Of a stretch of DNA of 64,000 nt, positions 40,827 through 64,000 are shown piece by piece. Location: contig OY979716.1 of the NCBI GenBank assembly GCA_963855995.1, positions 56,594,594 to 56,658,593 of the forward strand, in the 5' to 3' direction. Origin of the DNA: Muricea muricata. Lineage: Eukaryota > Cnidaria > Anthozoa > Malacalcyonacea > Plexauridae. A program made the translations under genes and the position numbers. The notes beneath the pieces are model-generated. The model had not been told where the DNA came from and searched no databases. It worked only from the letters and a program-made list of their open reading frames with translations. Each line of letters begins with the position of its first letter. The first letter of the stretch is position 1.

Positions 40827-42905
40827 GCAGAGGCTTCCTGTCAATTTTTGGATCGTACCCCCATTGCTAGATGCTATCCCTCATTACCCCATTACCCCCT
40901 ATTATCTTACTAAAACTATTTTAAACCAATAAAGCCTCTGCGGAGGAGAGTGACACGGCTCTCTGTTTTGGTCACCCCACCCTGTCTCTTGATAATAATC
41001 CTCCACGCAATCTGGGATTGACATATGAATGATGACCGCTGCATCAGGTTTGTCAACACCCACGCCAACAGCTTTGGTACAAACTAGACATTGTATTTCA
41101 CCAGACATCCATTTATCAGAAGTATCTTTTTTTAGAAACTTTGACATATCACCATGTTACGCTCTTGCATTAACTCTGACACAAGTTTAGCACATATGAC
41201 TTCACATTCCAACCGCGTTGCCCCATATACAAGCGAGCAGCTACAGTCTTTAATTTCATTTGCAATTTTTTCATCTAGTTTACCATCGTTACTTGCAGTC
41301 ACATATTGAAGGTTTAGTTTATTGTAATTGTCTCTAAGCACGATGGGTTCAACAACAGGCAGGACAGAACAAACATCCTGCTGTACAATATGTGTTGCTG
41401 TTGCAGTCAACATGACTACTTGCACAGTCGGGAAAAGCTTGTGCAGAAAGTCAAGTTTAAGATAACATGGCCTGAATTCTCTTCCCCACAGACTAATGCA
41501 GTGACACTCGTCTATTACAAATCGTTGTATGCTTCCTTTCAAATGCAACTCTTTTAAGACATTGTGAAATAACTTATCTGCCACAAGATATTCTGGTGTA
41601 GTATAAAGCAACTTGAAGGGGGGGGGGGGGGACTTCAAGATGTAGATAATGTAGTATGTGCTGTTTGACTGTCTCTGGTAACTCACCATGTAAAGCAGCA
41701 GCCAAGATACTTCTATTTCTACAATGATTAACTTGGTCAGCAATTAATGCTATAATGGGCTCCACGACAATAGTCACTCCAGATTGGGAAACAGCTGGCA
41801 GATGGTAAACAAGGGACTTGCCTCCACCAGTTTGCATGTTAATAAAACAATCTTTTGCTTGTAGAATTGCATCAACAGCAGCTTCTTGGTGCCCTTTAAG
41901 TGATGAAAACCCCCAGATCTTTGACATTATTTTTATTAGATCTGCAGCACATGTGGCATCCACGGGGACTTCAATTTGTATTGATGAATCTGGTGAAATA
42001 CTCATGTATTCTATCATTGGAATACATTGACTCAATGTACTTGGATCACTGTCAGTTGGTACAGCTATAAAATTTTCATTTCCATGTGTGTCAAACAATT
42101 CTCATTTACAAATGTTCTTTCACATTCAATAACAGGAACTTCACTTTCTCGCACATTGAATAATTTCCATGCCTTGTAAACTTTTGTTGAAAATAATCCA
42201 CAGACAGTTATAATAGTATGACCAACAGAGTACATCTTTAATTTGCCACTAACAAGTAGCACATATGATGCTTTAATAGCAGCATGATAGTGGTCGACAT
42301 CTTTTATTTCAAGGGATTTTGAACAATAGTTTATTGTAAAAATTTCTCCAACTTTCTAATGTACAAACAAGCATGTAGGTATGTATAGGTTTCAGGTGCA
42401 GATCCAGGCCATGGCAAAAGTGGCTTGAGCCATGGTCAGACTTTTTCCGCTTAAAATATTCCGAGTTAACCTTTTTTGGGGATTAGTTAAAATATTTTAC
42501 ACGATTTTAATAAGATTATATTATACAGCAAATATAGCTCTATAGCAAACAATTTGAACCATATCTTTCTTAGCTTTGCATAAAGCTATTTAATTTGTTA
42601 ACACGTGGAGCAAACTATCAACAAAAACGTAACAACTAATGCTCCCCGCGCAATTCAGTTTTCAAAGACATAAAAACACAAATTTATGACTATTGTATAA
42701 AAAACAATTACCACATGCTCACTTTCAAGATTTTTTCTTCCATTATTTCGCCTTGAAGTTGAAAGGTCCAGTCCCTAGCAGCGTTCATATTTATGTCTGC
42801 ACCATGTTCCCACAAGTAGTGTCTTTTAAAATTTCTATAAAATATTTTATGCCCTCTGCAAGTAATGTGCGGACATACCAAACTATCACTGCAAATCTCT
42901 GCCAT

Positions 42906-43135
42906 TTTGATTGCTAAACATCAAAGTTTATTAACATCGCTTGAAAGATGATCCGGGCAAAAGTATTGGGACCAAGTTGACGAATTTTGCTAGGCCTTCT
43001 CCCCACAAAAACCAATGGTTGACTCAACGAGAGAAAGCCTGGGACTAGGCTAGCATTTAATAGTTTCATGAAAAACTGCGCTGTCGTTGGATACAAACAG
43101 CATAAACCATACTATCAGTGGATACAACATGACAG
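42906..43135. other. Flank between RecQ start and composite element; one minisatellite unit
   Basis: About 155 bp of plain sequence upstream of the RecQ-like ATG (possible promoter remnant, nothing specific seen), then one copy (43,062-43,135) of a roughly 72-bp unit that starts AGTTTCATGAAAAACTGCGC and includes CTGTCGTTGGATACAAAC. The same unit occurs in the same orientation beyond the other end of the composite element (63,874 onward). Confidence 0.75.
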
Positions 43136-43772
43136 CACAGAATAGTAAAAAACAGAAAGCTCACTCCTTTGATCTTTTTGACGCGGCCGCCAATAGACGC
43201 AATGCGCATGTGCTGACGGCCGCCATGTTTCTGGCCAGGTCATCGCAGCCAGAATAATAGGAAATTGTATTAGCTGGAGGCGTATTTACTGCTAAAAAGT
43301 CAATATTTTCCCTGATTTTGCCATTTGTCGTGTCATTTGTGGTTTCTTCTATTTCTTTAATGTTCGAAATCATTTGAAAGAGTGGAGATCAAAGCAAGCA
43401 TTTATTTGTATGAATGTCTTGAATGATAAATGCAGTATTGCCAGTGTAAAATTTTACACACATGAAAAACAGTAATCGATTTAGCTTGTCGTAATTCATT
43501 TTTGAACACATAATTGTCATGTCCTCTATCGCATAACTCTTTGCAGCATGCATATGTTTCCATACTAAATGTAAGTTACATGTACAAATGAACATGCAGC
43601 ATCAGAAAGGGTGTTGTCAGTTGTGTTTTCTCTAATTTTTTTAGGTGAATATGCAGTTGCAATCAGCTAATCACGGACATCCACAGAATAAACTTCACAA
43701 ATTCACTGAAAATGATATTGTAACAGACCAAATCGTTTTAATTATAGTTTAACCATGTCCCTGTTTCTATTA

Positions 43773-44090
43773 GGGAGCTTAAGATCGACAACGCGGCAAG
43801 TTCGAGGACGCGGTGTCAATATATAAGTACAGGAAGAAGCTTTTTGGAATTTGATTGTTTTAATGCTTTGTGCTAAAAGTTGGACTTCCAAAACGCTTCT
43901 TACGCCATAGCATGCTTTCGCGTTGCCCAGGGGACGTGATAATTCTCAGTTTGATGTTCTATTAGGCATGGCTACGCACTTGAGAATACCCCTGGGACCA
44001 CAAATTATTCATGGCTGTTGTCTTCTATAAAAATATCTTTTGTTACGAAGCAGCGTCGTCGAGCTGCCGCGTTGTAAATCTTAAGGTTCT
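43773..44090. mobile_element. 318-bp MITE in the left repeat
   Basis: The ends are GGGAGCTTAAGATCGACAAC and the imperfect inverse GTTGTAAATCTTAAGGTTCT, with inner CGCGGC/GCCGCG. The flanks TATTA (43,768-43,772 and 44,091-44,095) look like a 5-bp duplication. The right repeat shows the empty site (around 63,190-63,200, TTAATAGAAACAGGG in inverse). A second inverted block, GCCCAGGGG/CCCCTGGG, lies in its centre. Confidence 0.8.
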
Positions 44091-45157
44091 TATTACCTAG
44101 TTTTTAACAGAATGGGTACATGCCAGTTATGGACTACTTGAAGGTTAAAATTTCTAGCAGAACAAATACTTATTAAAAGAGGGTAGATACATTGAAGGAA
44201 ACACTATAAAATTAGATATAGCTTTTTGTCTTTTTGATATTTTTTTAATCAAGATAAAAAGTTATACTGGATGAATTGTCTTCTTTGTATTTTCTGAAAT
44301 AACGTAAATAGTTGTACTGGATGAATCAAATTTGTGCTTCACTCCAAAGTTTGCTTACATGTGTATGGAGCATTCACATTTTGTTAAAATTCATCCAAGC
44401 AGCTGTCAGTATCTTTTTCAATTTGCAGTGTTGCACATCTGCTATTGGTGTAACATTGAATTTCTTGGACTTGCTTGAATGGTGAGATATGCAACTATGA
44501 TAATTTAAAAGTATTATTCCTATGACAGCTGCTTGGGTACAGTACATTTTAACAAAAATAAGTACGCGCAGCGTACATGTGGCTAGCCGAAGGTGCCGAA
44601 ATTGCAAAAATGTATTTGTACTACAGAACACTTGTATTCAACAACTTCACTTCCAAAAACGTAATGAACACATGTTGTAATTTTATACACGCTAAGTGAC
44701 TGGTAAAAATGCTGCTTCTGTTACACTTTTTTAAATGCTATACTGTAGGAATAAACATACAAGAAATTGAAATTAATTTATTACTGTCCAGAATTCATAC
44801 AGGATAGTCAGTTTTGCTTAATTAGTTAGCATGATGGTAAAATGAGTATTACAAATACATAAATTTCAGCCTTTTCTGCAGAGAATGTACAACAATGTGG
44901 TTTCTTTTTCTGAAGGTATTCCAGAATCTGGTTCAAAAGGTTGCAGTTTAAACATCAAACACAGTTCATTGAATCTTTAAGCTTTTTGTGATCATCTAAA
45001 TCTTGACTAAATCTACAACATTTTTACAACATAGAATATTAACTAAGGTTACACAATGGATAAATCATAAATGTGTCTTAAAGAGGTGGAAGTCACTCCT
45101 GGAAATCCTACACAGGTCGAAATTGAACAAATACCCATAATTATTCTTGTAATTCTG

Positions 45158-45235
45158 TAGCCGAGTGGTCAAGTGGGGTACTGACATCGCACAGGCATAG
45201 GTTTGATTGTAGCTGTCTGAAGACCTATAGTCAAT
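45158..45235 (+). repeat. tRNA-derived SINE-like or tRNA-pseudogene segment
   Basis: TAGCCGAGTGGTCAAGTGG fits a Pol III A box (TRGCnnARnGG), as found in tRNA-Ser/Leu D-arms. About 30 bp later, GGTTTGATTGTAGCT resembles a degenerate B box. The region between them does not fold as a good anticodon stem, so I favour a SINE head or an old tRNA pseudogene over a functional tRNA. Confidence 0.45.
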
Positions 45236-46055
45236 TAATGTTCATTAACATATTGCTCGAATTTCAGCATGTGCATGATTTCCATTTGAGATTAAGCCAC
45301 ATTTATCCCTTAATAACTATACAACATAAGTGCCTCCAGAGTCACATGTTTTACATCTTGCAAATTATCACATGTGGTTTGTATGATAGCAAAATAGTTG
45401 ATTTGTATTAACTGGCTTTGCTGCCAGTAAATAAGCTTCAATAAATTTCTGTAGAACTTTGAGAGTGAGGTAGGAACTGATAAATGCAGAGTTAACCCAT
45501 ATTTACACTTTAATAGGGCTTGGAAACAACTCTCTCCAGTGAGTTTGCACCACTAAATGATTGCAATAATATAGTTGCTACCTAGTACAGTTGGACTTGG
45601 ACATGAAATTTATTGTTATTATTAAAGCAGAGTATTTTTATATACTATATAAATTAATAATGATATACTCAATGTTAATAGTACTTGCACTTCTATATTC
45701 ATAGAGTTTTTGTGAGGCTACCGTTAAGATCATAATCGTCAATCAGCAGGATTAACAGGTTAATTATGCCCCAATTGTTTGTCAAAAATATAACTAAATT
45801 GTAATGACCAAACTAATACTATTTTAGTTGACTATAGTTAGGTTTGAGTTCAAGTATGACTTGTGAGTTCGCTTCGAACGATATTTTGTCCTCATAAACA
45901 GCAAAGTTTGCTCAAACACAAAATTATAATTACCTGTTGCACTAAGGACAAATTCCATGACAATGTAGTCCACCAAATATGTGCATTTTTACATCAAATA
46001 CACGAAATATAAACATAGTGGTTAGCCGCTGACCGGCTAGCCACAAAAAGTGAAT

Positions 46056-47300
46056 GAGGTACCACAAGTGGCCCAAGCTTACGAGTGGTTTTAACTAATT
46101 TTCTGTTTTTTTACACTTAATTTTGGAAATAAAATTTCTTTTGATTATACTTCAATTCTTTTATTGATTCTATACGTTTTTGGGCATTTTTGAAATAATA
46201 TCATAAAGTTAATTGCTAGCATTTGCTATCACTGGCATGTTGTAAAGTCAGAAAAAGGTAAAATACACATTAAATCACAATACTGACGAGTACACTTGTT
46301 TATCATGCTATTTAGTGCACACCTACCGATTTTCAAGCCATTTCATCAAGTCTGCCCCAAACAATATCACTTTGTATATATTGCATATATTGTATATATG
46401 TAAAATGCAAAGGTTGGAAGCTCGGCGCCAGGCAAACTTGGGCGAGGGCAAAATTGCAACGAAACTTGTCAATAAAAAATTATCGAACACGTCGATCGCC
46501 CTCAAATGTGGTGGCTATACGTACTCATGTCCATTTCACCTTTCCAACTTGTGAAATTGTCGCCATCGCTTTTCTATGGAGAAATAAATTGATTCAAAGT
46601 AGTTTCGCACATGCTTGAGTCGATCTGCCTTGACACCAGCGGTTTGGAAATTTAAATTTCCTTACCTTGTTACCGCGCCACAGGCGAAAATATTCATCCA
46701 CAATCCTCCTGATCAGAAATACATGGATCTCTGATCAGCAGGGTTGTGGTCGAATATTTTTGCGTGCGGCATGGTAACAAAATAAGGAAATTTAAATTTC
46801 CGAACCATTGGTGTCAAGGCAGATCGTGAATACGTATAGCCACCGTGTTTGAGGGCGATCAACGTGTTCGATAATTTTATATTGGCAAGTTTCGTTGCAA
46901 TTTTGCACTCGCCCAAGTTTGCCTGGCACCGAGCTTCCAACCTTTGCATTTTACATATATACAATATAAGCAATATATACAAAGTGATATTGCTCGGGGC
47001 AGACTCAATGAGATGGCTTGAAAATCGGTACGTGTGCACTAACTAGCATGATAAACAAGTGTACTCATCAGTATTGTGATTTAATGTGTATTTTACCATT
47101 TTCTGACTATACAACATGCCAGTGATAGCAAATGCTAGCAATTAACGCTATGATATTATTTCAAAAATACCCAAAAACGTATAGAATCGATAAAAGAATT
47201 GAAGTATAATCAAAAGAAATTTTATTTCCAAAATTAAGTGTAAAAAACAGAAAATTAGTTAAAACCACTTGTAAGCTTGGGCCATCTGTGGAGGTACTTC
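46056..47300. repeat. 1.25 kb near-perfect palindrome (fold-back)
   Basis: The arms 46,056-46,700 and about 46,720-47,300 are inverted copies. The outer parts share GGCCCAAGCTTACRAGTGGT and the inner parts GTTGGAAGCTCGGYGCCAGG. The centre is CTGATCAGAAATACATGGAT with the inverse CTGATCAG. The arms contain matching open frames (46,315-46,554 plus; 46,713-47,039 minus) only because they are copies. No protein function is seen. Confidence 0.85.
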
Positions 47301-47652
47301 ATACATATGTAAGCAAACTTTGGAGTAAAGTATGGAATGCCATATATGACAGTATATTATTCTGATAGATATGAATGAGAAAATATATATTTGTATTGGA
47401 AACCATTTATATATATGTATTTCAAATATATATGTATATTATTAAAAAATATATGTATTGTAAAATACCTACATATACTGTATATTAAAAATATATATAT
47501 CAGGATATATTAATACAAATATGTCCGAAATATGTATATACGTATTAGAAAAAAAATATATGTATTGAAAAAATTTTTAAATACATTTGAAAGCCAGCGG
47601 TTGTCGTAAAATGATAATAGAACATGCGCATTGTAATCATTAGATTACAAAC

Positions 47653-49548
47653 ATGGCGGCAGGAGATATTAATATTGAGGAGTTTATGGAGAACATTCCT
47701 TCGTTTGTTCGCGAGGCTGAACGAAATATTCACTGCAATAACATCAACGTTTTGGAGAATTTTGAACTGCGACTCAGCGACAAAGTAAATATTATTGGAG
47801 CCATAATTGAGCACTGTCTAAATTGTGGTTGTGACGACGATATCAACGGACGTTTATTGCTAATTTACAACATTCTGACCGATCTATCTAACCAATACAA
47901 AGAGACATGCTTTTTGCACAGGGACTACAGGGCAGAATGGGGTTTCTCGTGTCCCATCGAGCGGTCAGGAAGAGCGGGTCGACCACGATATGACATACCT
48001 CCAGGATCTATCAATCAACTGCATAGCATCCACAATAATTGGAACATTGTTTCAACACAGGCCAGCATCAGTTACATGACACTTCTGAGACGTCGTCACG
48101 AGTATGGATTCCCTGTCGCCAATACTTTCGGCCCTCGTGACACCTACTCAGATATTTCGGATGAGCATCTCACAAATGCTGTACGAGATATTTTAGCTAT
48201 CACACCTTCTGTTGGGAGACATATGTCATAGGTTCTTTGAGAAACAGAGGGATTCACGTCCAACGTTCGCGTGTAAGGGATGCCATACGTTCTGTAGACC
48301 CAATAGGCGGGTTTATAATGTTCTGTGCCCAAATGCATTATGGTGAGTTTTTTATTTAAGTTCCAATTTTATGCATTTTTTTTTCTTGAATTTTTCGTGT
48401 ATTATAAACTCATTAACAATTCATGAAGGCAATTCAAAAGAAGTACATGTTTGCCAATGTCTGTGTACATACGCTGGTACAGAATGGTCCTGATTTGCAC
48501 AAACGTTTCTTGCAATTTTTGAAGTTTTTAATGTTTATTTTTCAAATGTAATTTGAAAACATGACTATTTGTAGTCGTTTGATAAGTAATTTACAAAATT
48601 TGTTTCTGTTTTGTATCATTGTACACAGATACTCTTGCGAAGCACTCGTGTTTTTGCATACACTGATACAGAATGGCTACTCATATTGTAAACACTACTT
48701 ATTTGATAGTAATGTGATATACTGTATTACTTCTGTATTACAATATTAGGCACATCGATGGCCACCATAAGCTCGTCAGATGGAGAATAGTGGTGCATGG
48801 CGGCATTGATGGGTTCAGCAGATGTACTGTATATCTCAAAAGTTCAACTAACAACAAAGCAAATACTGTGACATCACTGTTTGAAGAAGCAGTCCAAGCA
48901 TATGGTCTTGCTTCTCGAGTCAGGTCAGATTTTGGCACTGAAAACATTGGAGTTGCTTCATTCATGCTCAATCATCTAGAGTGTGGTCCAAATCGTGGAA
49001 GTATGATAACAGGGTGCAGCATCCATAACCAGCGTATCGAACGCCTGTGGCTCGAAGTAAAGAAGAACATGGTGACTTATTATCGTAACATCTTCTACTA
49101 CCTAGAACAATGTCAAGCACTAGATATATTGGCAGAATCACATCTGTTTGCACTTCATTATGTCTTCCTGCCCCGCATAAATCAAACCTTTACTGAATTG
49201 TCGCAAAGTTGGAATAACCACCCAATGAGAACTGAAGGGAATAGATCCCCTAGACAACTTTGGCATTCTGGAATGTGTGCAGCTGTCAACTCAAGGTATT
49301 CTGCCATCGAGAGTGCATTTGATGACACACTGGATTTGGAGAACTATGGTGTGGAAGATGGTGAGTTTATTGAACTTGATACGAATAACGATGTTCAAAT
49401 ACCTGAAAAAACTGTAAACCTCACTAACGAACAACTTGAACAATTACGCCAGGCTGTTGTACCACTTGTTGAAGATGGAAATCATGGGATAAATCTTTAT
49501 CTTGCAGCTGTAGTAATGGTAACCGAGTTTTGCTCAGTGAATACATGA
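47653..49548 (+). pseudogene. Integrase-core (rve-like) DDE recombinase of the composite element
   Basis: It starts MAAGDINIEEFMENIPSFV. Residues 60-110 are helical (CGCDDDINGRLLLIYNILTD). A helix-turn-helix-like region follows: RSGRAGRPRYDIPPGSINQL, ISYMTLLRRRHEYGFP, then RSRVRDAIRSVDP in a second frame and RRVYNVLCPNALW in a third, so there are two 1-nt-type shifts near 48,213 and 48,295. A phase-2 intron (48,343-48,749) joins LW to HIDGHHKLVRWRIVVHGGID. The catalytic triad is readable: Asp in HIDG, Asp in VRSDFGTEN (56 residues between), Glu in IHNQRIERLW (36 residues between). That is the D-x(55-60)-D-x(35-36)-E spacing of retroviral-type integrases and related transposases. A long C-terminal tail includes NHPMRTEGNRSPRQLWHSG. 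The gene starts about 48 bp inside the left TIR. It most likely encoded the mobilising enzyme (inference). The shifts make this copy inactive. Confidence 0.8.
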
Positions 49549-49639
49549 ATTGTGTTATTTCAAAACAATAATTAAACTTGAGAAGGTCAATTTTATGTCA
49601 TGTACCTTAACCTTGAGGGGCTGGTTGTGCAAAATGTGG

Positions 49640-49835
49640 ATAGCACTTATCCACCAGACAGTGATTTTTTCAACTCTGACAAAAGCGCAAAAAATTGTAT
49701 ATTATTGATATTAATGTATTATATAAAGATAAAAAGTGATTTTAACTCAAAAATGCTGAATTGTGATATGGGTTTTACCAATTACTGGACATGTTTAGAA
49801 AGTTAAAAAAATCACTATCCGGTGGATAGTGCTAT
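49640..49835. mobile_element. About 196-bp MITE with short inverted ends
   Basis: The left end ATAGCACTTATCCACCAGAC, then AGTGATTTTTT, is mirrored by AAAAAAATCACTATCCGGTGG and ATAGTGCTAT at 49,804-49,835. It encodes nothing and lies just after the integrase stop. A target duplication is unclear. Confidence 0.65.
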
Positions 49836-50634
49836 TGATTCTTTTGTACAGTTAAACAACTTTTGTATTGTATCTGTATTAAATCCATATAAGCCTGTGT
49901 ACAGTATACAGTCATTTTGAATTGGTAAAGCAAGTGTTAACACAAGTGTTAAACAAAATGTTAAAATTTACACTATTTCTTTCATCAGTGAACAAAAACA
50001 AACCAACTATTTTCTAATATCAACTTAAATTGTCATATTAATTTTAAAAGAATATCAAACATATGACCAAATTATACATTTTTCAACCATATGACTTTCC
50101 AATAAAAATACCTGATAAAACAAAGTGTAATTCTTACAATGCCATTAATTGTAAGCCTTTAGATTTCTAATATACTTTTAATATACTTTAACTTGAATTC
50201 AGAATAACTTCTTTTGTAGAATTCTTGTGACTCTGCTCCTTGTCAAAATATTTAACTTTGAGACCTCTGCACTTATGTACAATAGTTTAGCTACTTCTAA
50301 ATAAATTAGTCTTTTTCAAGTCATTCAAAGTGATGTCACACGTACAGTATTAGTGGCATATCCAATAAAGCTGAATAACATGACAAGGAACGGAGTTACA
50401 AAAATTCTGCAAAAGCAGTTATTTTGTGATTTCAAGTGATCTTTGCAATGCAACCAAGAAAATACTGGACAAATTTTTGTTTCATAGGTGCTTTAAAAAA
50501 TCAATGAGTTCACATGGTTGATACAATATAACTATATGGTCAATTATGACCCTGCAAACAAGCTATTTGCAACATTTTCTGTAACTCCACATATGTAACA
50601 AGTGAACTAACAACAAGAAAAACAGTCTGTTATT
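49836..50634. other. Convergent 3' region between integrase and HECT genes
   Basis: Both genes end toward this AT-rich stretch. AATAAA words are present on the plus strand (50,101, 50,299). No reading frame or repeat of note is present. Confidence 0.5.
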
Positions 50635-53311
50635 TCACATGCGTCCTGTGCGCTGATACTGACATGAAATTGCTCCTGATAGTGCCGTTCTGAAAGTGTT
50701 GTGGCTGGAATGGCCACTCGGCAAAATGATTTTATTGAAAAAGCAATCAGCATCAGGTAATGGCTTGCTGTTATCAAAATAAACATTGATTTTTGCAGCA
50801 GGCAGTAGAGAACCCCCTGTAATGAACTGGAGTACTTTTTTCAAGTCCACAGCATGGTCAGCTCCTGAAAGAAAAAGCATGTCAAATTTGATTTCCATGT
50901 AATTCTCATTCAATTTTTTAAACTCTAAACTAACAAGTAACAATATTAGTTAAAATTTTCTTACCATTCCCTGTTTGTGGAGTTGTCTTGATGAAGTCCT
51001 TAAACCATTGAAAAGTTGTATTCTCCTGTTCATTCATAGGTTCAGCAGCATGCAGTTTTTCTGCACAACTCATCAGGTGAAAAGTGGCCATCACTTGGTC
51101 CAGGAAATCGGTGCTTCAGGGGAATGTCCTCATTTCTCTCCATAAAACTTGCCAATCCAAAGGGATCATTCAACCCCCATCAGATACTGGATGGCCCGGT
51201 CTTTGTTGTGAAGAGTCAAGAGATCTGGGAACCCTGAATTTGGATAGCAAGCCAGCCACTTCCCTGCCAACAGTCAATCTCTGTAATTCTTCTTCTTGGA
51301 TGGAAATTATCTGTTTCAAAAATTTACAAATATATATGTACAATGTATACATACACCTGTAAGCCTATAATCCCTATTGAAAACTTGCACCTAAAGGCAT
51401 CCCTGTCAAATTTGCATATACTGTACCTTGTTTATAATCTCTCTCAATTCCAGATCTGCCACATCTTTCACTGACATAGAGTTGCAGGCATTCTCAATGT
51501 TTCCACTGATGATAAACGATGCCACAGTTGAGGAAATACCAGTAACAGCAATGCCAGCATGTATAATACTGTAAGCTATTAACTGGCCAATGTAGAAAAA
51601 TATTCTAGATGCTAGGAGATCTGTGTTGTGACAAGGTACCATGTGCGGGTACTCTCCCTCAAATATAACCATGGATCCTTCTCCTTCTCTAATGGCTATT
51701 GTTAGGCAGGTTAGAAATTCTCGTGTTAATCCTTCAGCATCAATCCCTTCCTTGTAGACAAATCTTACATCTGGCACTGGCTGTAAATTGAACCTTTTTT
51801 GTTTCAGCAACCGCATGCATTGCAAGAGTAGCCTATCTCTTTTGATATCCAATGTTTGAACATGTTCTGAACTGCCTTGTACTTTTAAAAAGTTATAAAA
51901 CTTTTCATCAATACCAGCAATTGAAAGAATATCATCATCTATATCGTTGTGTGATTCTGACAACAAAAAGCAAGTAGTAACTTATAATAGTCACGAAAAC
52001 CACAAAACATATACAGGTAATGGCAGCAATGTACAAAGAAAGCCTTAAGAAATAGAACAGGGTTTACTGTATACAATGTTTTGATTTGACTTAGTGGAAC
52101 AATCAAATAGTTACATACTGAAGTATACTGATAGTATATCTATTGTACCAGAAGTAATAAAAATGTTATTGACTAAACTGACTGTGTATAAGTCAGTCTG
52201 CACATGCAAATCAGTTCCATGCTGACACAGTGACACTGACAAGATATTGCCAAAATGAAATCCTTACCTGAAGACATGATAAAATCTACTGCATGGTTCA
52301 TGTCCGTCTGCTTCATTGCTTTGTGAAGCATTTCACCACACAAATCTGGGAATATCTCTTTTAATTTGTTTATGGTTGGCACTGCTACTTGGCTCTAGAA
52401 GAAAAATAAAGCCTGTTTCATAAGTCACACTATCATAACACAAATGCAGTTCAAGCAATAGATAATGAAGGTACACTACAGGCCAATGAAAACAGGTACA
52501 CTACAAAGCCAACACAGTTACCAGAGTGCAGGAGTGTTTGTTAAAAAAATTTCAATTTTCAAACAAATTTTACAGGGCCTTTAAGCTTGCCAGGTGTCCT
52601 TTCTTATAAAGTGTTGATTATATGTGTGTATGCTAAGCTTAATTGCTAATTAAACTTGATTTTCTGAGATTATAATAGTGGGGGATAAGACTTATATGCT
52701 CAACCTGGGGCCAGGTTGGGCATATTTCAATATCTTCACTTGAGTGAGAGGGGTACAAAGGTAGAATAATTTTATTTTAAAACATTAGATTTAATCACAC
52801 TCTTACAGTTACTTTGGAATAAGTGTCTTGACGTCCCTCATTGATTACATGAGTGTTGTCTGGTTGACTTGAATTAGGAAGATTCTAGTGAAACCAAGAG
52901 ACATAATTGATTACACTGCAAAAACATTTTAAGCAATTTTTTACAGTAAATGTCTAATAATTTTAGTTTAAATTTCCATTTAAATAAAATTACCTCTGCA
53001 TTTAAGTGATCATTTTGGCCTTCAGATTCACATGAAGGTGGGGTGTGATGTGGCAGGAGCTAAAAAAGGGACATACTCGCTACTTGCAGTTGTCAATAAA
53101 AAGTAATTAATTATACGCTAAAAATTAAATTACATGTTACACTTACAAGTGCATTTATAAGGCAAAAATACATAGTCAACATAAAACACACCTTAATGCT
53201 GTCTTCAACATCACTTGAATTATCGTCACTTGAATTATTGATGATATTTTCCTCTGGCAGAAGCCACACTGTTCTCTGTGTGAGGCTGTGTGCATGATAT
53301 TGATTCCCAAA

Positions 53312-53437
53312 TGCATAACAGGCACGCTCTACCGTGCGTAAGTGCGCATGAGGCACGCTCACGCACGGTCTTCTTAATTGAGACCGTGCGTAAAACAACT
53401 GGGCACGCTGCTCTGTAATTTTAACCGTGCCTAGTGC
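53312..53437. repeat. Left cluster of GGCACG/CCGTGC motifs
   Basis: Within 125 bp there are at least seven occurrences in both orientations: AGGCACGCTC, ACCGTGCGTAAG, GAGGCACGCTCACGCACGGT, GACCGTGCGTAAAAC, GGGCACGCT and ACCGTGCCTAG. Related clusters are at 57,625-57,715, 59,625-59,725 and 59,930-60,135. Confidence 0.85.
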
Positions 53438-53559
53438 AAGGTAACAATGCTAGCGGTGAACATTTGCATGTTTTGTATGTTTTTTGCATCAATTGTTGCG
53501 TTAGATAATTGTAGCAATAAAAATAAACTCCTAGTAAGCGGAATTTTGTATTTAACTAA

Positions 53560-54901
53560 TTCCAGATAGCCTGAAAAAAATAGAGGAAAGAAGGAACGAA
53601 GTCCTGAAGACTCCTCTAAGTGACTTGTTGACCGAAGCAGACAAAAAGTTTGTTGAATCCTGGAGACTAAAAAACGATGAAAAGGCGGCAAGTAAATGTC
53701 GGATCAATAACGATGAAGTAGCTGTATCGAAGGCAAAGAAGAAACCTTTATCTTCCCTGACAACTGGCTCATCTTGCGCAATGACTTCCCCGCCTATGGA
53801 TGTAGCAAACACTATTGTTTCTTCTTCCATACCATTTTTGCAATCTTCAACTGTTTCTTCTGTCCAACCAGCTGCTCCATTATTTCACAGTTCAAACACA
53901 CATCCTGTTGAATCTGTTTCAAACAATGTTCTTACTATTTTACCTGACTTATCTTCATCTCCTACTCCTGTTTCAAACGACCATGATTTTCCTGTTTTGT
54001 CTTTGCCCTCATCATCTTTTGCTTCAACAAGTCAACCATCTGTCTCTTTAAACATACCTCCCAACCATCTGCAGCCTTTAACTCCTCTAAATGTTAGTGT
54101 TACCTCTGATGATCTCTCACTTCCAACATTTTTTACAGATTTACCTGCCAATAGTAATAACTTGCACACATCTGCAGAAACTTTATCTTTCAGTCCAGTC
54201 TCCACAAACTCATTCTCTTTTTCTTGGAGTGGTGTCTCACATAATAATCGCTATTTTGATCAATCTTATCCCCGGAGTTCTACTGCCGTGCGATCAAGTC
54301 TTCCGACACGTTTTTCAGTAAAAGACAACCTTACTTGCGCTGGCAACCCTTCAAGCAGCTTTTACAATATTCTGCCTGGCCAAGCACATCCAGAAAACAT
54401 TCCGAACCTTGAAGCTTTGGTTACCCAGAAAGTTGATAGCCTTTCTTGAAATGTTGATATGGTGTTAGCAAATCAACAAACCATCATCGACTACTTGATG
54501 AACCAACAACCAGTAAGGAACACGACGCCGGTCATATCAACAGCAAACAAAGACGACATTCTGCTAGCTGAGTCACATCGTTCTATCGACCCGTCGGCCG
54601 ACCTACATCACCCTTCAGAAGTTACGCTAGCAGAACTTGAGGTTCTTAAGAAGTCCAAGAAAAAAGGGACAAAAGATGCCCATTTTGCAGTGATGCTGCT
54701 AAAAAGTACACAACGCCCGAGGAACGTTTGAACTGTACGGTTTATGGAGAAGGGCGGAAATCCAAAGGGTTGGGCATACACATATTGACAAAAATTAAAG
54801 AAGCTTATAAACTTGTGTATTCAAACGAATCATGGGGTGAAGCTGTAAAGGCAATGAACAGTCACATGACAAAATATTGTTCTTCCAAAGACCAAGAGTA
54901 A
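53560..54901 (+). pseudogene. BEN-domain protein of the nested element
   Basis: The frame starts at about 53,560 with EERRNEVLKTPLSDLLTEAD, then KKFVESWRLKNDEKAASKCR. It passes through some 200 residues of very Ser/Pro/Thr-rich, probably disordered sequence, and reaches ENIPNLEALVTQKVDSLS and a TGA at 54,447-54,449. The same frame continues NVDMVLANQQTIIDYLMNQQ. Near 54,700 it shifts into KYTTPEERLNCTVYGEGRK, GLGIHILTKIKEAYKLVYSN and WGEAVKAMNSHMTKYCSS, ending at about 54,901. The last 80 residues match the BEN fold pattern (start of helices with FAxxLL, the C-T-V-x-G turn, and the final W-x-x-A-V-x-A-M/I block). BEN domains bind DNA or chromatin proteins. The protein is probably the DNA-binding partner of the transposase gene facing it (inference). 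One stop and one shift disable it. Confidence 0.6.
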
Positions 54902-56212
54902 CATTTGTGGCATAATAATATATCACTACAATATATAGCTAAATGAACTTATATTTAGATTGTGGCTGCATTTTATACGTTTCTATATTGATCATATGAT
55001 TATAAAGGTTAGTAAATCTGTTTTCTTTTGTGTGTCATCTCATGAATAGAATGTTTATATATAATTACCTATACAGGGTGTATAAAAAAGACCTTTTCAA
55101 ACTAGCCGCAATCTGTTGCATTAGTTTGACACTTGGAATGTTTCACTATATAGAACTAATGTTTCGAACTAGGGATCCAAGGATAGCGCAAAGTGTCAAC
55201 GTCAAACAACTGTATAACAAACTAACACAAATACCGACAAACAATGCATTTGATTTAATATCGGACTCATAGTACTCAGTAATATGGCCGATATATTTGA
55301 TGAGGTATACACATGCAGATAGCACACTGTCTGGCGCCGTAGCATATTTGGCTGATGAAAGATGTACGCCTGGTTAATTTTGCTTGCTTAAAATGAATAC
55401 TTCGTATTCCGTAAGCTAACATTTAGTGTTTCATTTCGTGGTATTTTGTGGAATATAGGATAAAATAAAATATGAAATATGATAAAATATTCTTTAGAGC
55501 TGATTCACAATCAGCAGTTGACACGCACAGGCTACATTATAAATACGCTAAAGATTTCACTATTTGAGATGTAAGAACTGTTTGAAATAATTATGTAATT
55601 TACTTGAATAAAACAACTTTCGATCTGTAGTATTTACAATGCATGATACTAATGTATACATTTATAGTAACTAAACGTCATAACGTGTATACAAGTTTGA
55701 TTGACAGTTATCAAATATATGTGTTCAGTTTATTCTACAGCTAGCTTGAATTCGAATCGAGATCGAAATTTATTCGAATCGAGATCGTGATCATGGCACG
55801 CACACATGTTTACTAAGTGTTTTTCTTAATTGACCAGTGCTGAATCGCAAAGACTACTAAAATCACTGTTAACATATAATGAAAAATATTAACATTAGGA
55901 AAGTTTTAAAACCTGGCCCGCACTAGCGCACGCTGCGTGTGTATAACCACAGGTATAAAATAATCCTAGCAGTGTGGGGACGAAATGAAGTAGTTGTCAT
56001 TCGTCACATATATACCAGTGTCAAATAAAACTTTACACGAATGACAAAAATATCATTTCGCGACCGCACACAAAGATTTTACCCAAGGCGTCACTAATGA
56101 CCTGTGTGCACGCAACTTGCACAAATGTGCGCAAGTTTTGTACTGCATGTTGGAAAACACATATTTAATACACGCGTAGGTTATTATTTGTCCACGTTAC
56201 AATCCATAATTC
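54902..56212. other. Convergent 3' region of the nested element
   Basis: No gene is recognised. A CAGGGTGTATAAAAAAGACC terminus-like sequence at 55,075 resembles one end of a Tc1/mariner-type MITE, but I found no partner. A 16-bp direct repeat, ATTCGAATCGAGATCG, is at about 55,750-55,785. Confidence 0.45.
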
Positions 56213-59200
56213 TTAAAACCCATACAAGGACTCCAATATATCCATGTGTAACGCTTCAGGAATTTCGTATACTGGTGGTGTGGCAGAGATGTCAGATACG
56301 CACAATTCTGGACAAATGAACCTCATAGTTGCAGCATAAACGGCAGCTGTTTTCTCCACGTTCAGTTGATAATGATAAGGGGGAAGTCTTGTGCGCTTTC
56401 TGACGAGAAAATGTCCACGAATTATCTCTGCACCTGGTGGGTATGATGCTCCCCAATCATCACTTTCTTCTGCAGTTATAACTTCCGGCCCTTCCCCAGT
56501 CACCTGTAAAAGATAGTAATCCTCACCTCTATCTGCAGCAGCAATTGCAACAATTGCATCCTTCGTTGCAAGCTGTTTAATCCCTTCTAACGCATCAGCA
56601 ACGTCCCCTCGAGTAACAACAGACGATTGATGGCCATGCTCTCGTTCCAACTCTTGTTCTTCCCATTTATCTACGTAAACTGAATTTTCACAAGAATCAT
56701 ATTGGAAATCCAAGCATGCATTGCAGTAACAAGGTAGGCGTCTCATGCTGATAGTACAACCACCGTCTGTTGACACGACTGCATGAATAGATCTGTTTCC
56801 CTTCACATCTTTAAAATACCGATCTCTTCTGTTGCGCAGTATATCGTCGTCGTAAAAAAATATACGCCGTTTGACTTTGATGCTCTCGGACTGGTATCTT
56901 GAGGGTGCAGGATCCTTCATTGTATTTTCAGCGAACTCATACAACTCTTTAGCGTTTCGAATAACAACTTGTAGAATATAAAAGAACGGGGTTATTGCCC
57001 CATGTCTACTAAAAATATCACTTATACTGCGGCAAGAAATGGATGATGTATAGGGCCTGGTATAAACAGAATTTCATGCTCTCTATTTTCATGATGTGGT
57101 CAAGCCTGGGTACAAGGTTCAGGTGGACTGCAGACGTTTTTGGATTCTTTTTCGAATTTTTTGTGCTTTAGTAAGGAAAAATTTTTTTTTCTTTAAATTG
57201 GAAAACTTGCATATTTACCTGACGTTTAATGACTGCCATGTCAGCTTCGTGTTTGAGATTGGCTCCAGCACCATCTTGTGGCCCTTTTGCATGCGATGTT
57301 TCGAAGTAGTTTTGAATCGTTATGTAACCAAAATCAGAAAATGATTGAGCAACATCTCCCATGCAGTGGCGGCTTTTATACTGCGTCGAACATCCATCCG
57401 TCCACTCGTGCATAGTTTTCACGTCATAACCTACAGTATAACATATGATTAAAGTTTCTCTTAGATGACAATGTTTTCCTAAATTGCATGGGCAATCAAA
57501 ATTGCCGAATACACATGAAGACCACAATTATTTGTTTTCCAATTGACATGTTCCAAAATTTAATTCCAGATTAAATTATTGGTTAAAATACGGTACCTCG
57601 CAAGCCTATGGCTATGCACTGTTAGGCACGGTCTACGCACGCTTTTCTCCCTAGAGTATGTAGTTGTACTTTCTGTGGGTTTCGACCGTGCGTGACCATG
57701 CATAACCGTGCGTGACCATAATATTGCAATTATTTACTAAAATAATTGACATTTTCCTACCTATTTCATCGAGATAACCATTCATCACCTTTCGAGCGCT
57801 GTGTACTGAGTGGTGGTCATGCTTGGAATCAGGAGATATAACAAAAATGTGCTCGGTGATAACATGTGGATTCTCATCCGTGCTTTGGATTCCGTCTACA
57901 TTGAGCAGAGCATGGCGGTGGAGAATGGTAATGTGAATTGATGCTTGAACTTGGTCTTGCATAGTACAGCTGTAGTTTTCTGAGTAATCGTGAACTGCCA
58001 CAGCATGGCCAACTGGAAGATTCTCGACTAAATCTCAAAGCTGTTAGTTTTGCCAGTTAGCTCGGAACTGATGGGAAGGATATGTCTCTACGAGTTTCTT
58101 TAGGTATACGAACATTTCGCCTGGAGACGTCAATTTATCGACTAACTTCAGCTTCCTTTTATCCGAGTTATCCTCGTTGACACCAGTGACGACATACTCA
58201 AACTTACGCCATTTGATTAATGGAGCATTGTCAGTGAAATCCTCTTCTTCTTCTAACACTTTAAACTCAGCAACTCCACAGTTTTGGCACTTTCGAAGAA
58301 GGCAATCTGGTTGGTGGTATTTGTCTCCATCCTTTTTTGGACATAAAGTTTCGTTAACTAAGTCAGTCAAATGTTTGTACACGATGTACTGTTCTGGACG
58401 CTCGGCGAGTTGTCGTCTGTATTCCATGCACGACTGAAAAACCATCCTTGTTTCCACGTGTATGCGACAGCAACAAGATATCTTGTCCTGAGATCGTGGC
58501 ATGGTAACATAAAAAGGTTTGCAGCTCTCGAACGTGCGCTGTCCCATTTTAATGTCGGGATACTTTTGCTGGAATCCGAGGTAGGCTTCAGTTTGGGTTT
58601 TTTCTAGGATTTGTCTTGCATGTGTCACATAGACTTTGGGTGCTAGTCTTTTGCGCACAATATCTCTTTTATTTGGAGTCGTCCTCGAAACATCAGGGCA
58701 AGCCTAAAAGTCGTAAGCGAGCTTTCGTTGCTCTGCTGGGATGGCATCAGATCTTGTTTTCCGTTCCGTATGTGTCCAACAAGATTTTTTGCTTTTCAAA
58801 ACTTTCTTACGATGAGTAAATGCTTTACCAACGCGCTTTCTATTAATATTCAGCATTTTGGACACTTTTGTCTTCATTCGTTTCTCTTTTACGTTATCGC
58901 CACATAGGAAGCCAAGAGCTGTCTGAGTAGCGGCTCGAGAGTCATTAGATCGTTGACTTTTTGTGACACTAATAGCATCTCTCGCATCGCCGAAAGAGCA
59001 ACACCACCTTCTTCTCTGTTTTTCGCTGAAGGAATAAGACCTTTACCTTCGAGCCCGCTTTTCGTCGTTGGGCTTTCCATAAGTGCTGCTACGACTGCAA
59101 CTTTCTTTGCAGGACTTTTTGGAAGATGCGATTTTACCAAGTCAACTTGGCGCTTCTTGGCCATTCTTGTTGGAAAAGCTGTACTAGTGGACAATTCATT

Positions 59201-59530
59201 ACTATCCAGTTTGCGTTTGTTTTTTCTCATCTGCGACTTTTCTTTTTTTTCCTTTGCTTCTTCTTTAGCCTTCGCTTGTTGTTGGCGTTTATAAAGTGCC
59301 CACTTTTGTCTTTTTACTTTGACACTGCTACTGTCGTCGTTTGTATCACCTTCAAGGACGGCGTGCTGAGCAGATAAAATAGATTTTGGCTCCTTGGCTT
59401 TCTGTCGCTTTTCACGACGCCTTTGATTAATTCTTTCTTTGTTCTCCTCGTAGTATTTTAGGCGGTCTTCTCTTTCTTTATTCTCTCGGCCTCTCTCAGT
59501 CTTTTCGTCTTACTGCTAATAGTTTTCTCC
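56213..59530 (-). pseudogene. DDE-like transposase of the nested element
   Basis: The N-terminus (from 59,530, MEKTISSKTKRLREAERIKK, shifting near 59,480) is long, basic and helical: YYEENKERINQRRREKRQ, KRQKWALYKRQQQAKAKEEA. Then, in a new frame from about 58,935, come QTALGFLCGDNVKEKRMK, HTERKTRSDAIPAEQRKLAY, a TAG at 58,704-58,706, and KMGQRTFESCKPFYVTMPRS with a Cys-rich block ISCCCRIHVETRMVFQSCME. After two in-frame stops at 58,044 and 58,035 the core follows: GHAVAVHDYSENYSCTMQDQ (first Asp), exon 57,430-57,195 with MHEWTDGCSTQYKSRH (second Asp) and SHAKGPQDGAGANLKHEADM (possible third acidic position). The final exon, 56,970-56,213, has YFKDVKGNRSIHAVVSTDGG and CYCNACLDFQYDSCENS. The D, D and GK-x-x-D/E order parallels the TTAA-transposon protein, so the two may be distant relatives. 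I have seen this family as an unnamed repeated gene in invertebrates. Confidence 0.65.
57625..57715. repeat. Intronic cluster of GGCACGGT/ACCGTGCG motifs
   Basis: TTAGGCACGGTCTACGCACG, then GACCGTGCGTGACCATG and AACCGTGCGTGACC, lie in the intron between the first-Asp and second-Asp exons of the nested transposase gene. The motif is the same as at the element's edges. Confidence 0.8.
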
Positions 59531-59619
59531 ATCCCAAATCGCTTTGAACCTTATTTACGCACAAGTCACGCTATACTACATACGCGTCAGTTTTTACGAC
59601 CTTAAATTGTTTTCCCCCA

Positions 59620-60140
59620 TGTTAAACCGTGCCTAAAATCACGCATGAAAACTCTAGGCACGGTGTCAATATATTAGCTAGCACGGCGTGCGTATACTTT
59701 AGGCACGGTGTGCCTATATAAAATCTTAAGTGAACCTTTCAAAATTACTTATTTAAGAAAGGTCCTACTGCAATTTGCTATACAGGGGATAAAGATTGAA
59801 ACGCGTGTAAAAAATCAATGCATTGCCTGCCGATTAACAAGTTTTGTATTACAGTTCCTGTCATTACACTAGAGCACTGAGGACGTTTTTGGGCTATATA
59901 TACTTCTATAACCTTGCATGCCAAAGCGTGCCCAAAATTACCTAAATCACCCATAAACCATATGCCATAAACCGTGCCTAATTGATCGGGATTTTTACCC
60001 GGCCGTATCTATAATAACAAACTTATTAAAGGTAAAAATTGAGCGTGCCCAAATACTGCCTCAAGGTATTTTACGCACTGTCTGTGGAATGTGAAAACGT
60101 GCCTAAAGGGTGCCAAGAAATTGCCTAGCTGTGCGTAAAG
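59620..60140. repeat. Right clusters of the GGCACG/CCGTGC motif
   Basis: Occurrences include AACCGTGCCTAAAATCACGC, TAGGCACGGTGTCAATA, GCACGGCGTGCGTATAC, TAGGCACGGTGTGCCTATA, GCGTGCCCAAA (twice), AACCGTGCCTAATTG and AACGTGCCTAAAG. Together with the left cluster they bracket the BEN and transposase genes. Between the motifs the sequence is AT-rich and noncoding. Confidence 0.8.
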
Positions 60141-60621
60141 CAACATACGACAAAGCAATGTGCACAAACGTACATCGGAGAGTCAAATGTATTTTACCGT
60201 AAGAATAATGAGTGCTAACTGGTGAAAATGCAACTAAGCTTGGTGCAAGTAGCTTGTCCAGCGATAGAACGTTAAATTAAAGCATCTGACGTACGTATAA
60301 ACATTTTATTATCAAGTTTAAAGTAGGCACTACCTGTAGTGGACAAATGGTATCAAACTGAATACATACAATTTCACTTACTGAATCACAATTAAAATAA
60401 AAAGTTATATTTTCTGTCGAAAGCGGAATATTTTGTCCATGCCCTATCCCAATATTTAGGCAAAAAAATACAAAACCTTGGATTTTAGGAGCATAAATAT
60501 ATTATGCACTCGTGATTTGTGACGCCAAATATGTAATTGTTCACAACATTATTGCCATTTTTTAAATTTTTAACAGTATTATACAATATTTGCAAATGAT
60601 AACATTGAATTAAGGACCAAA
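60141..60621. other. HECT-gene intron remnant
   Basis: Between the nested element's right motif cluster and the HECT-ligase exon at 60,622-60,828. AT-rich, no features seen. Confidence 0.45.
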
Positions 60622-60828
60622 TTATTCTTCACAATTAGTTTTGAGTTGGGCAAAGTTTGATTTGGTTAAAATATTAAGCAACAAATGCAGATTTTGCTGG
60701 TCTAGGGTATTGTAAACCGACACCATGCACACAGCCGTGAACACTTTATTCAGGACATCTCCACTAAGTTCCTGACCCTCGCAAAGATTAGGTGCAACTA
60801 ATTCACTGCCAACACCCATCATTATCTT

Positions 60829-61984
60829 AAACCTGACAAAAACCAGTTAATAATTTATTAGGGTTACACCAAATAGTGATACTATGTCGATCACTACATC
60901 CAATCTACCACTATTAAAAATAATACATGTATTGTCACTTAAAATACCCAACCATTAACCATTGTGACCAGGTGTGTGGCAATTTCATTGCTACTGTTGT
61001 GATTTTATTTTTTTGTATGATTATTTTTTTTTTGTAGTAGCTTGAAATTTGTGGTAATTGCTAACAGTATTTTTTTGAAAATTGTAAATTAAATATAGCA
61101 TTTAATCTTAAAACAGGTAAAAATCAATTAGTATCTAAATTTCCAATCATTGATTTTGTTCTCCACCCTACTGGTGAAAATTGAGCATTTTTGGGAGAGC
61201 ATTTTTGGGAGAGAATTTTTTGTTGAACTTGGAACCACTGAATTGATATGGTGATATGGTTTCAGCATCAGTTTCAGTGGCATGACAAAAGTGCTCACTC
61301 AATAACTATGTAACATCGATGATACAGAAACAGAGAAAACAAACAAACTTTTTTATTTTTATAAGGCATAAAGTATGCTCAGAATGGATCTGACCTCTTT
61401 GGTAAATAATTTATGTGGAATTTTTGAAAGTGTGAAATTGTAAACCAAAAATTCAGAGGCTGAATCTAGACACAAGGAGAAGAGATCATCAAAAATGTGA
61501 AAATCTGGTAACAGGTACTGTGGTAACTTTTGACTTAATTAACATGGTAACTTTATGAGATTGGATTTGGTAATTGCCCCTGACAAAAACCTGTCACACT
61601 GCCATTAACTTAACTAGTAGTGCAACTACACTAATTGTTTACAGTGGAAAAATTCAGTGGCATGAGAATTGCCAGTTTCATAAACAGATTTAACACCATT
61701 AAAAATACCCCATCTATTCCAAAATTTGCAATTTTCTCTACCTGATTAAAAAGTATTTTAAAAATTCTGCAAATATTGTTAGAACTTTGAATTTGCAGAA
61801 AATAGAAAATAAGAAAGTTTATCACCATGGCATAAAGCATGACAGTAGTGTTGTGTCATGAGACATCCACATTCTACACTTTACAAAAATCAGCATTGTT
61901 TATATTCGACTAAACTATTGATGTGTGGGATGTAATAAGGTGGTTAATTATTTTTTTTCATTTAAGTTTTGTAACTAAAATAGG
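60829..61984. other. HECT-gene intron
   Basis: AT-rich intron between the exons ending and starting at about 61,985 and 60,828. Contains T-runs and a tandem GAGCATTTTTGGGA duplication near 61,180-61,210. No gene is recognised. Confidence 0.5.
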
Positions 61985-62661
61985 TTAAAGTGCTAACCTT
62001 GCTGCATTAATATCAGAACTGGTAGTACTGGAGGTAGGGCTGGCCAATTTTGCACAAAATGCGTGTCGCAGACGATTTGTCAATTCTTCTGCACTCCAGC
62101 ATTTGTTGAATTCGAATGAATTTATTACATGGCCCATCCTTTGCAAAGTGGCCTTCTTTCTTCCTCGAACTAGATTATCATGGCGAGCGAAGAAGCACGA
62201 CCTCACAATTAAATGTAATTCTTTCTCCTTTGCAATTTCCCTTGCCCTTTCCTCCAACAGTACTACGGTTGTAAGGTGCAGCTGTGGCTCTTGACTGAGG
62301 ACCCCAGTTAACTCTCTGTTGGAACTGTGGAAGAGAATTTGCCCTCCCTCTAAAAAGGAGCTGTTGCAGTTCCTGTCTAGGTGTTCTGCGAGCTGTTGCA
62401 GTTCCAGTGGAACTGGAAGTCAGGGGCGATTCTGACGGCCGTGGTGATTTCGATGGTCCCAGAGACGAGGCAGGACTTTGATTGTTTCTCAAAGCATTGT
62501 GAAATGAGGGGTGATTTAACACCTCCCTGACTATTACTTCTACATTTTGCTCTTGTTGACGAGCTGGCAGTTATTCATTGGCAGCCATGTTTTCCGTTAA
62601 TTAATTCGCGGGAAATATACCGGAAGCGAACCGGTAGCGGAAATTGGGTTCTATTTGCAAA

Positions 62662-63868
62662 GACAACCGCTGGCTTTCAAAGGTATTTAAAAATTTTTTC
62701 AATACATATATTTTTTCTAATACATATATACATATTTCAGACATATTTGTATTAATATATCCTGATATATATATTTTTAATATACAGTATATACAGTATA
62801 TGTAGGTATTTTACAATACATATATTTTTTAATAATATACATATATATTTGAAATACATATATATAAATGGTTTCCAATACAAATATATATTTTTTCATT
62901 CATATCTATAAGAATAATATATTGTCACATATGGCATTCCATAGTAAAGCACAAATTTGATTCATCCAGTATAACTATTTATGTTATTTCAGAAAATACA
63001 AAGAAGACAATTCGTCAAGTATGACTTTTAATGTTGACTAAAAAAAAATTCAAAAAGACAAAAAGCTATATCTACTTTTATAGTGTTTCCTTCAATGTAT
63101 TTCCCCTCTTTTAATAAACATTTGTTTTGCTAGAAATTTCAACCTTCAAGCAGTCCATAACTGGCATGTACCCATTCTGTTAAAGCCTAGTTAATAGAAA
63201 CAGGGACATGGTTAAACTATGGTTAAAACGATTTAGTCTGTTAGAATACCATTTTCAGTGAATTTGTGAAGTTTGTTCTGTGGATGTCTGTGATTAGCTG
63301 ATTGCAACTGCATATTTACCTAAAAAAATTACAGAAAAAACAATTGACAACACCTTTCTGATGCTGCATGTTCATTTGTACATGCAACTTAAAACGTATG
63401 CATGCTGCAAACAGTTATGCGATAGAGGACATGACAATTATGTGTTCAAAAATGAATTAAGACAAGCTATATCGATTACTGTTTTTCATGTGTGTAAAAT
63501 TTTACACTGACAATACTGTATTTATCATTCAAGACATTCATACAAATAAATGCTTGCTTTGATCTCCACTCCTTCGAATGATTTCAATCACTTTTAAAAT
63601 CGTTTCGAGCTTCGTAACAGTAAAGAAATACTCTGCGTACCTTGAACTTTGATATTCCAACCACAAATGACATGACAAACGGCAAAATCAAAGAAAATAT
63701 TGACTTTTTAGCAGTAAATACACCTCTAGCTAATACAATTTCCTATTATTCTGGCTGTGATGACCTGGCCAGAAACATGGCGGCTGTCGGCGCATGCGTG
63801 TTGCGTCTATTGGCGGCCTCATCGAAAAAAAGCAAAGGAGTGAGCTTTCTGTTCTTTACGATTCTGTG
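62662..63868 (-). repeat. Right terminal inverted repeat of the composite element
   Basis: Full-length and uninterrupted, about 1.2 kb. The inner 250 bp is an AT dinucleotide-rich tract (TATATTTTTT, ATACATATAT). The middle part corresponds to 44,100-44,340 and the outer part to 43,136-43,770 on the left. It supplies the empty-site reference for both insertions in the left repeat. An outward-facing open frame (63,642-63,869) is shared with the left copy. Confidence 0.9.
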
Positions 63869-64000
63869 ACGACAGTTTCATGCAAACCTGCGCTGTCGTT
63901 GGATACAAATGACATAAACTATACTATCGGTGGATACAACACGATAGTTTCATGACAAACTGCGCTGTCGTTGGATACAAACAACATATAAACCATACTA
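63869..64000. repeat. Start of a roughly 71-bp tandem repeat array
   Basis: Two units begin at 63,874 and 63,945 with AGTTTCATG, each containing TGCGCTGTCGTTGGATACAA and a TGGATACAAC or expected equivalent. The second is cut off by the window end. One unit in the same orientation precedes the composite element at 43,062-43,135. Confidence 0.85.

Follow-up and report, generated by a model that had tools for sequence, protein, structure and literature searches.

A HECT-type gene facing the DDE transposase in IS3EU/GingerRoot-like transposons of Muricea muricata

The transposon and its two genes

Analysis of a 64,000-nucleotide stretch of the anthozoan Muricea muricata (assembly GCA_963855995.1, contig OY979716.1, positions 56,594,594 to 56,658,593 of the forward strand; hereafter the window) identified a transposon with two convergent genes, one for a transposase with an integrase-like DDE core (the integrase) and one for a HECT-type protein. 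We consider it probable (about 0.8) that the window holds a dead, decayed copy of an IS3EU/GingerRoot-type DDE transposon which has a HECT ligase as its regular second gene. This figure covers the identity of the element and the HECT gene as a regular and useful gene; it includes neither of the targets discussed below for the ligase. The features of the transposon are listed in window coordinates; loci retrieved for comparison carry L numbers and contigs C numbers.

47325..47330, no strand: left target duplication, GTAAAG
47331..62943, plus strand: inner IS3EU-type transposon, family A; 15613 bp including a foreign insert of 7.45 kb; collinear with L009:743-8829
47331..47605, plus strand: left terminal inverted repeat (TIR) of the inner transposon, 275 bp
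47653..48231, plus strand: N-terminal coding part of the transposase, from the ATG as far as the frame stays open; broken further on
48750..49548, plus strand: catalytic exon of the transposase, D-56-D-36-E, PF24764; open frame 48718-49548
50635..50865, minus strand: HECT exon 6, C-lobe; F at the catalytic Cys position in the window copy
50966..51244, minus strand: HECT exon 5; frame broken in the window copy
51422..51956, minus strand: HECT exon 4, N-lobe
52268..52394, minus strand: HECT exon 3; looks CUE-like by eye but does not score as CUE
53192..53283, minus strand: HECT exon 2, second part, severed by the insert
53284..60736, no strand: foreign insert of about 7.45 kb within HECT exon 2; ends GGCTGTGTGCATG...CATGCACACAGCC
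60737..60832, minus strand: HECT exon 2, first part
61998..62588, minus strand: HECT exon 1; in-frame stop after five residues in the window copy
62662..62943, minus strand: right TIR of the inner transposon, 282 bp
62944..62949, no strand: right target duplication, GTAAAG

The transposon has TATGG...CCATA ends: it starts with TATGGAATGCCATA, finishes with the inverse, and is followed and preceded by GTAAAG. The first-pass annotation had placed an integrase-fold gene with a D-56-D-36-E triad about 48 bp inside one repeat, and the start of a convergent HECT gene about 68 bp inside the opposite one. Both placements were confirmed with small adjustments: the transposase ATG (47653) lies 47 bp inside the repeat ending at 47605, and the HECT ATG (62588) about 73 bp inside the repeat starting at 62662.

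The catalytic exon matched PF24764 with an E value of 7.3e-71, and the triad was invariant in 18 aligned relatives picked from the best 120 listed. The first D stands at about residue 240. The integrases of L045 and L047, which have open frames, also matched PF24764; HTH-type matches were found before their core (PF13384 above the cut-off in L045 only), and no HHCC or integrase zinc domain was found there among the families scored at E values up to 1. Of 8000 candidates scored in a protein search with the integrase, 1596 were relatives. The three top-ranking ones listed came from Paramuricea and Dendronephthya, which are octocorals, with 63, 50 and 63% identity; lower-ranking relatives listed came from fish, hydrozoans, stony corals, beetles and a limpet. 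No integrase relative was obtained from viral contigs with the two patterns used. The search of bacterial and archaeal genomes found relatives on three short contigs (L038, L039 and L040, 3.4-4.2 kb), which carry integrases of this eukaryotic type and are filed under a bacterial metagenome-assembled genome, that of a Cycloclasticus sponge symbiont. No HECT was found on these contigs, which are probably host DNA within that assembly.

The HECT genes of the window and of L009 contain introns and are broken. When exons of L009 were joined, the reading matched PF00632 with an E value of 2.3e-9, and the last L009 exon alone reached 28.1 bits, the cut-off being 23.9. Unspliced frames of seven other loci, L026, L027, L028, L045, L046, L048 and L049, were also above the PF00632 cut-off. 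Membership in the HECT family is hence independent of the joining of exons, since the last exon of L009 and the unspliced frames score by themselves. The E values of these single unspliced frames, which are located beside other integrases, were 1.9e-14 (L027), 7.8e-11 (L026), 2.2e-7 (L028), 2.3e-13 (L045), 2.3e-17 (L048), 1.5e-17 (L046) and 4.4e-7 (L049). The N-lobe exons of the window, L009, L024 and L025 matched no Pfam family when scored alone, and the joined reading matched no PDB chain at E values up to 1. A profile of nine HECT sequences matched 54 distinct PDB sequences at E values of 0.01 or below, all of them named HECT-type ligases, the best being E6AP (1c4z, 3.3e-11). The L045 protein alone matched 1c4z at 2.4e-7. 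A predicted structure of the C-lobe exon had a mean pLDDT of 44.5 and was set aside.

By sequence, the catalytic Cys position is kept in L009, L011, L026, L027, L028, L045, L046, L048 and L049. The open HECT frames, counted from the first Met, are 684 aa (L045), 580 aa (L046) and 666 aa (L048) long. A CUE-like ubiquitin-binding module had been proposed for the window gene; no CUE domain scored above the cut-off in the window family, nor in L045, L046 or L048, and in the related family C the HECT protein of L032 contains PF02845 (E 5.5e-6, 26.4 bits against a cut-off of 21.1). The L045 protein has a C2HC-like stretch below threshold. The HECT gene of family B contains a long internal array of short repeats (L024:3886-4688).

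Other copies of the transposon contain both genes. The second copy of family A (L009:743-8829) is 8087 bp long, is collinear with the window copy and has CATGCA on both flanks; the window copy is about 7.45 kb longer because the foreign piece sits in HECT exon 2. In the third copy (C1:34230113 onwards; L010, L011 and L019) both genes are collinear and other insertions are present; its integrase-side end is missing, hence no target duplication could be read. Recurrence of the two genes in the same order, proposed as a check by the first-pass annotation, was seen in all three substantial copies found of the family. A fourth place (C7, L020/L021) held fragments alone. Two loci on C3 (L022 and L023), retrieved around weak TIR-like matches, had no match to the inner transposon. 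The insert of the window copy has 13-bp inverted ends (GGCTGTGTGCATG) and, by reading, a 4-bp duplication, GTGA; its frames 56213-57073, 58044-58703 and 58889-59509 matched no Pfam family above the cut-off.

Two further families gave copies with both ends: family B with C1:50795376-50802799 (7424 bp, target duplication AACTAC) and C12:7398917-7406426 (7510 bp, CACAAT), and family C with L032:1437-8675 (7239 bp, CTTGAT). All five copies with both ends located, from three families, have TATGG...CCATA ends and perfect 6-bp duplications (GTAAAG and CATGCA in family A, AACTAC and CACAAT in B, CTTGAT in C), with both genes inside. Both genes were read within the element in the C1 copy of family B and in L032; for the C12 copy the ends were read and the genes were placed from the positions of the genome search. 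An end-pair scan of nine other loci (L025-L028 and L033-L037), in which most stretches are cut close to the genes, found no end pair.

Pairing and evolution of the two genes

The M. muricata genome was searched for integrases (140 matches scored from 811 candidates) and for HECT genes, the latter with the L009 exon (150 matches, 233 candidates) and with the L027 protein (91 matches, 86 of 297 candidates scored). With both HECT lists, 80 of the 140 scored integrase loci had a HECT match within 10 kb and every one of the 80 pairs was convergent. In 1000 random placements the mean was 2.4 and the maximum 8, and for convergent pairs 0.58 and 5, respectively. The first HECT list alone paired 62 of the 140 loci, all 62 convergent (500 random placements: mean 1.7, maximum 6), and the gap between the paired genes was 573-3530 bp in 60 of the 62. 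The random control placed matches uniformly along the contigs and ignored repeat clustering, and near-identical copies were counted separately; uniform orientation and tight gaps are affected by neither. Counted from the HECT side, 82 of 194 merged HECT loci had a listed integrase within 10 kb.

The loci around high-ranking integrases from outside the family (L024-L028) all contained HECT by tblastn (5/5), and three of these had escaped the first pairing. Loci L032-L037 were selected as already paired and are no test of the pairing. Eleven loci retrieved for other reasons had no match with the same integrase and HECT queries at an E value of 1e-4. These results show a transposable unit that encodes a DDE transposase and, facing it head-on, a HECT-type protein, an arrangement seen repeatedly in one genome. 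The pairing, the five two-ended copies with both genes and the long open frames that keep the Cys make it likely that HECT is a regular second gene of these elements, one useful part of the transposon kit.

The distances of the two proteins were compared over 11 loci, among which L026 and L028 contribute short HECT stretches. Integrase and HECT distances correlated with r 0.55, a value reached in 8 of 5000 permutations, and the two trees had three sister pairs in common; to this extent the co-divergence that the first-pass annotation had asked about was seen, and elsewhere the trees differ, as described below. In most pairs of these loci the HECT sequences had diverged further than the integrases. 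Comparisons between families gave dN of 0.27-0.44 for the open HECT frames (L045, L046 and L048) and of 0.32 for the integrases (L045 and L047), dS being saturated in both cases. Modest dN against saturated dS points to purifying selection on both genes between families, although no ratio can be derived.

Several observations weigh against a HECT gene that is a regular and useful part of these transposons. Among the matches listed, 60 of the 140 integrase loci were unpaired, and 112 of the 194 merged HECT loci had no listed integrase within 10 kb. The only unpaired integrase locus inspected (L049) has HECT. The short L045 sequence showed no element ends. Purifying selection was sought within family A and was not clear from dN/dS, which was 0.71-0.81 for HECT and 0.56-1.04 for the integrase, the value of 0.56 coming from an incomplete match; little or no constraint among these copies is as expected of relics. 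The integrase and HECT trees place L034, L028, L032 and L033 differently, so that some reassortment of the two genes is possible. The protein collection contained no relatives of the family-A HECT at the thresholds used, and none of the best 120 integrase relatives listed carried a HECT label (0/120), although a length limit could hide large fusions. Because of these last two results, the recurrence of the pairing is known from this genome alone.

Four unpaired HECT loci were inspected: an integrase was present in L043 and L044, a diverged one on the same strand in L041, and none within 4.5 kb in L042. Two of these loci have further features. The integrase of L041 (L041:3013-3885) matches PF24764 with an E value of 5.5e-7 and lies on the same strand as the nearby HECT match, perhaps as another arrangement of the two genes. 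In L042 a PF13843 transposase frame (L042:1569-2786), which we take to be of the piggyBac type, is inserted between pieces of the HECT gene.

The nested surroundings in the window

The first-pass annotation had bounded a single element at 43136..63868 by a TIR of about 1.2 kb. Inverted repeats as such are real in the window sequence, but these bounds are not those of the transposon: the integrase and HECT genes lie in the inner transposon, 47331-62943, and the nesting had been missed. An outer element contains the inner transposon, which in turn contains the foreign insert. The outer element has the following features.

43136..63868, no strand: outer long-armed element holding the inner transposon; inexact 7-bp flanking repeat, ATGACAG/ACGACAG
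43136..44343, plus strand: left arm of the outer element
62950..63868, minus strand: right arm of the outer element, beyond the target duplication of the inner transposon

The repeat 62662-63868 is a compound of two elements lying side by side. Its first 282 bp (62662-62943) pair with 47331-47605 and belong to the inner element; its last 926 bp (62943-63868) pair with pieces of 43136-44343 and belong to the outer one. A search of the genome (453 Mb, 74 contigs; 40 of 555 candidates scored) with the whole repeat gave at least 75 matches, which, except for the window's own, fell within positions of about 1-282 or about 282-1207 of the repeat. The junction at position 282 was well spanned by the window's own match alone, and by one other match by 19 bp. 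A single element with TIRs of 1.2 kb was ruled out, as the two halves of the repeat occur apart.

The outer element belongs to a family with arms of about 0.9-1.2 kb and no recognised genes (window and L012-L018). In L013, L016, L018 and the window the arms face each other and are flanked by 7-bp repeats: ACACTAC, GTTAAAC and ATATTAC in the three loci, and ATGACAG/ACGACAG, with one mismatch, in the window. No 7-bp flanking repeat was found at the guessed right ends of L014 and L015. The HECT and integrase queries had no match in the seven loci L012-L018. In the window the outer element lies in repeats spaced 72 bp (43060-43135 and 63872-63988). A near-perfect palindrome with arms 93.5% alike is located directly to the left of the inner transposon (46054-47302); it was absent from the loci retrieved up to that comparison. 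Two overlapping minus-strand frames (41132-42101) gave matches to the DEAD helicases (PF00270) and look RecQ-like by eye.

Possible roles of the ligase and related systems

From the sequences we infer that the DDE enzyme moves the element and that the HECT protein transfers ubiquitin and helps the element to persist. The mechanism that we place first is that the ligase ubiquitylates host proteins which silence or restrain the element. This assignment of targets is tentative, somewhat short of an even chance. It is favoured because HECT diverges faster than the integrase, and because the TET/JBP genes of fungal IS3EU elements are proposed in PMC12730594 as an aid in escaping silencing. It is nearly as likely that the ligase acts on its own transposase or transpososome, in turnover, release from the ends or control of copy number. 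A physical encounter of the two proteins would account for genes that remain joined in one unit and for the correlation of their distances, whereas the greater divergence of HECT fits a host-facing protein somewhat better.

An improbable alternative is that HECT is a passive passenger, left by an ancestral capture and without present benefit. The broken frames of family A and its HECT dN/dS of about 0.7-0.8 agree with this, but the open frames of 580-684 aa keep the Cys while their synonymous sites are saturated, and HECT is found beside many diverged integrases. Least probable by far is an accidental nesting, in which unrelated HECT and integrase genes were joined by the insertion of repeats. 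The window is itself nested, with an outer element, an inner transposon and a further insert, as such an accident would have it; against it, all 80 paired loci are convergent, 60 of 62 gaps measure between 0.57 and 3.53 kb, and five two-ended copies with perfect duplications hold both genes. Chance nesting is ruled out by the genome-wide pairing. The view of the first-pass annotation that the ligase is among the core genes of such a transposon, for which accidental nesting was the danger named, stood this test (80 of 140 loci paired, 80 of 80 convergent, family-A copies collinear).

A transposon gene for a ligase in regular use, our preferred reading, has wider consequences if correct. Should the same pairing occur in other genomes, a ubiquitin ligase would be standard equipment in a widespread group of DNA transposons of eukaryotes, and some HECT genes in animal annotations would be transposon genes. 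It would offer a handle on how DNA transposons may steer protein turnover in the host, as a counterpart to the alpha-kinase and TET/JBP genes of rust-fungus IS3EU elements (PMC12730594). The broader proposal, that animal IS3EU elements as a class encode their own HECT ligase, which disarms host control, and are a continuing source of new HECT genes, seems doubtful to us. The copies with long open frames make the activity and the substrate of the ligase directly testable.

No superfamily could be named for this arrangement in the first-pass annotation; the features of the ends fit IS3EU/GingerRoot. IS3EU elements have TA..TA ends and usually 6-bp duplications, according to PMC10045372, and the rust-fungus elements have the ends TAYGG..CCRTA, according to PMC12730594. 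The elements described here resemble IS3EU/GingerRoot, as far as these sources describe it, in their TA..TA ends, their 6-bp duplications and an integrase-like DDE transposase that has its first D at about residue 240 and, in L045 and L047, no HHCC domain found before the core. All the features examined were present, and this fit of features suggests that they belong with this group. Unlike the IS3EU/GingerRoot elements described in these sources, they carry a HECT gene. The words HECT and ubiquitin are absent from the main text of PMC10045372 and from that of PMC12730594, and no report of HECT in an IS3EU element was found in the literature searches, several of which were narrow; a note on it may exist in Repbase.

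The HECT protein has matches to the N- and C-lobes of PF00632 and a Cys at the active-site position in common with E6AP/UBE3A and other HECT ligases, and differs from them in being very diverged and encoded between transposon ends. The closest parallel in layout comes from the rust-fungus IS3EU elements: in those that carry TET, an alpha-kinase gene is opposite to the transposase and TET/JBP lies between the two (PMC12730594). Matching ends, 6-bp duplications and a second enzyme gene opposed to the transposase are shared with the M. muricata elements, in which the second enzyme is a HECT ligase instead of an alpha-kinase with TET/JBP between. By analogy, the HECT gene occupies the place held by the alpha-kinase in the rust-fungus elements.

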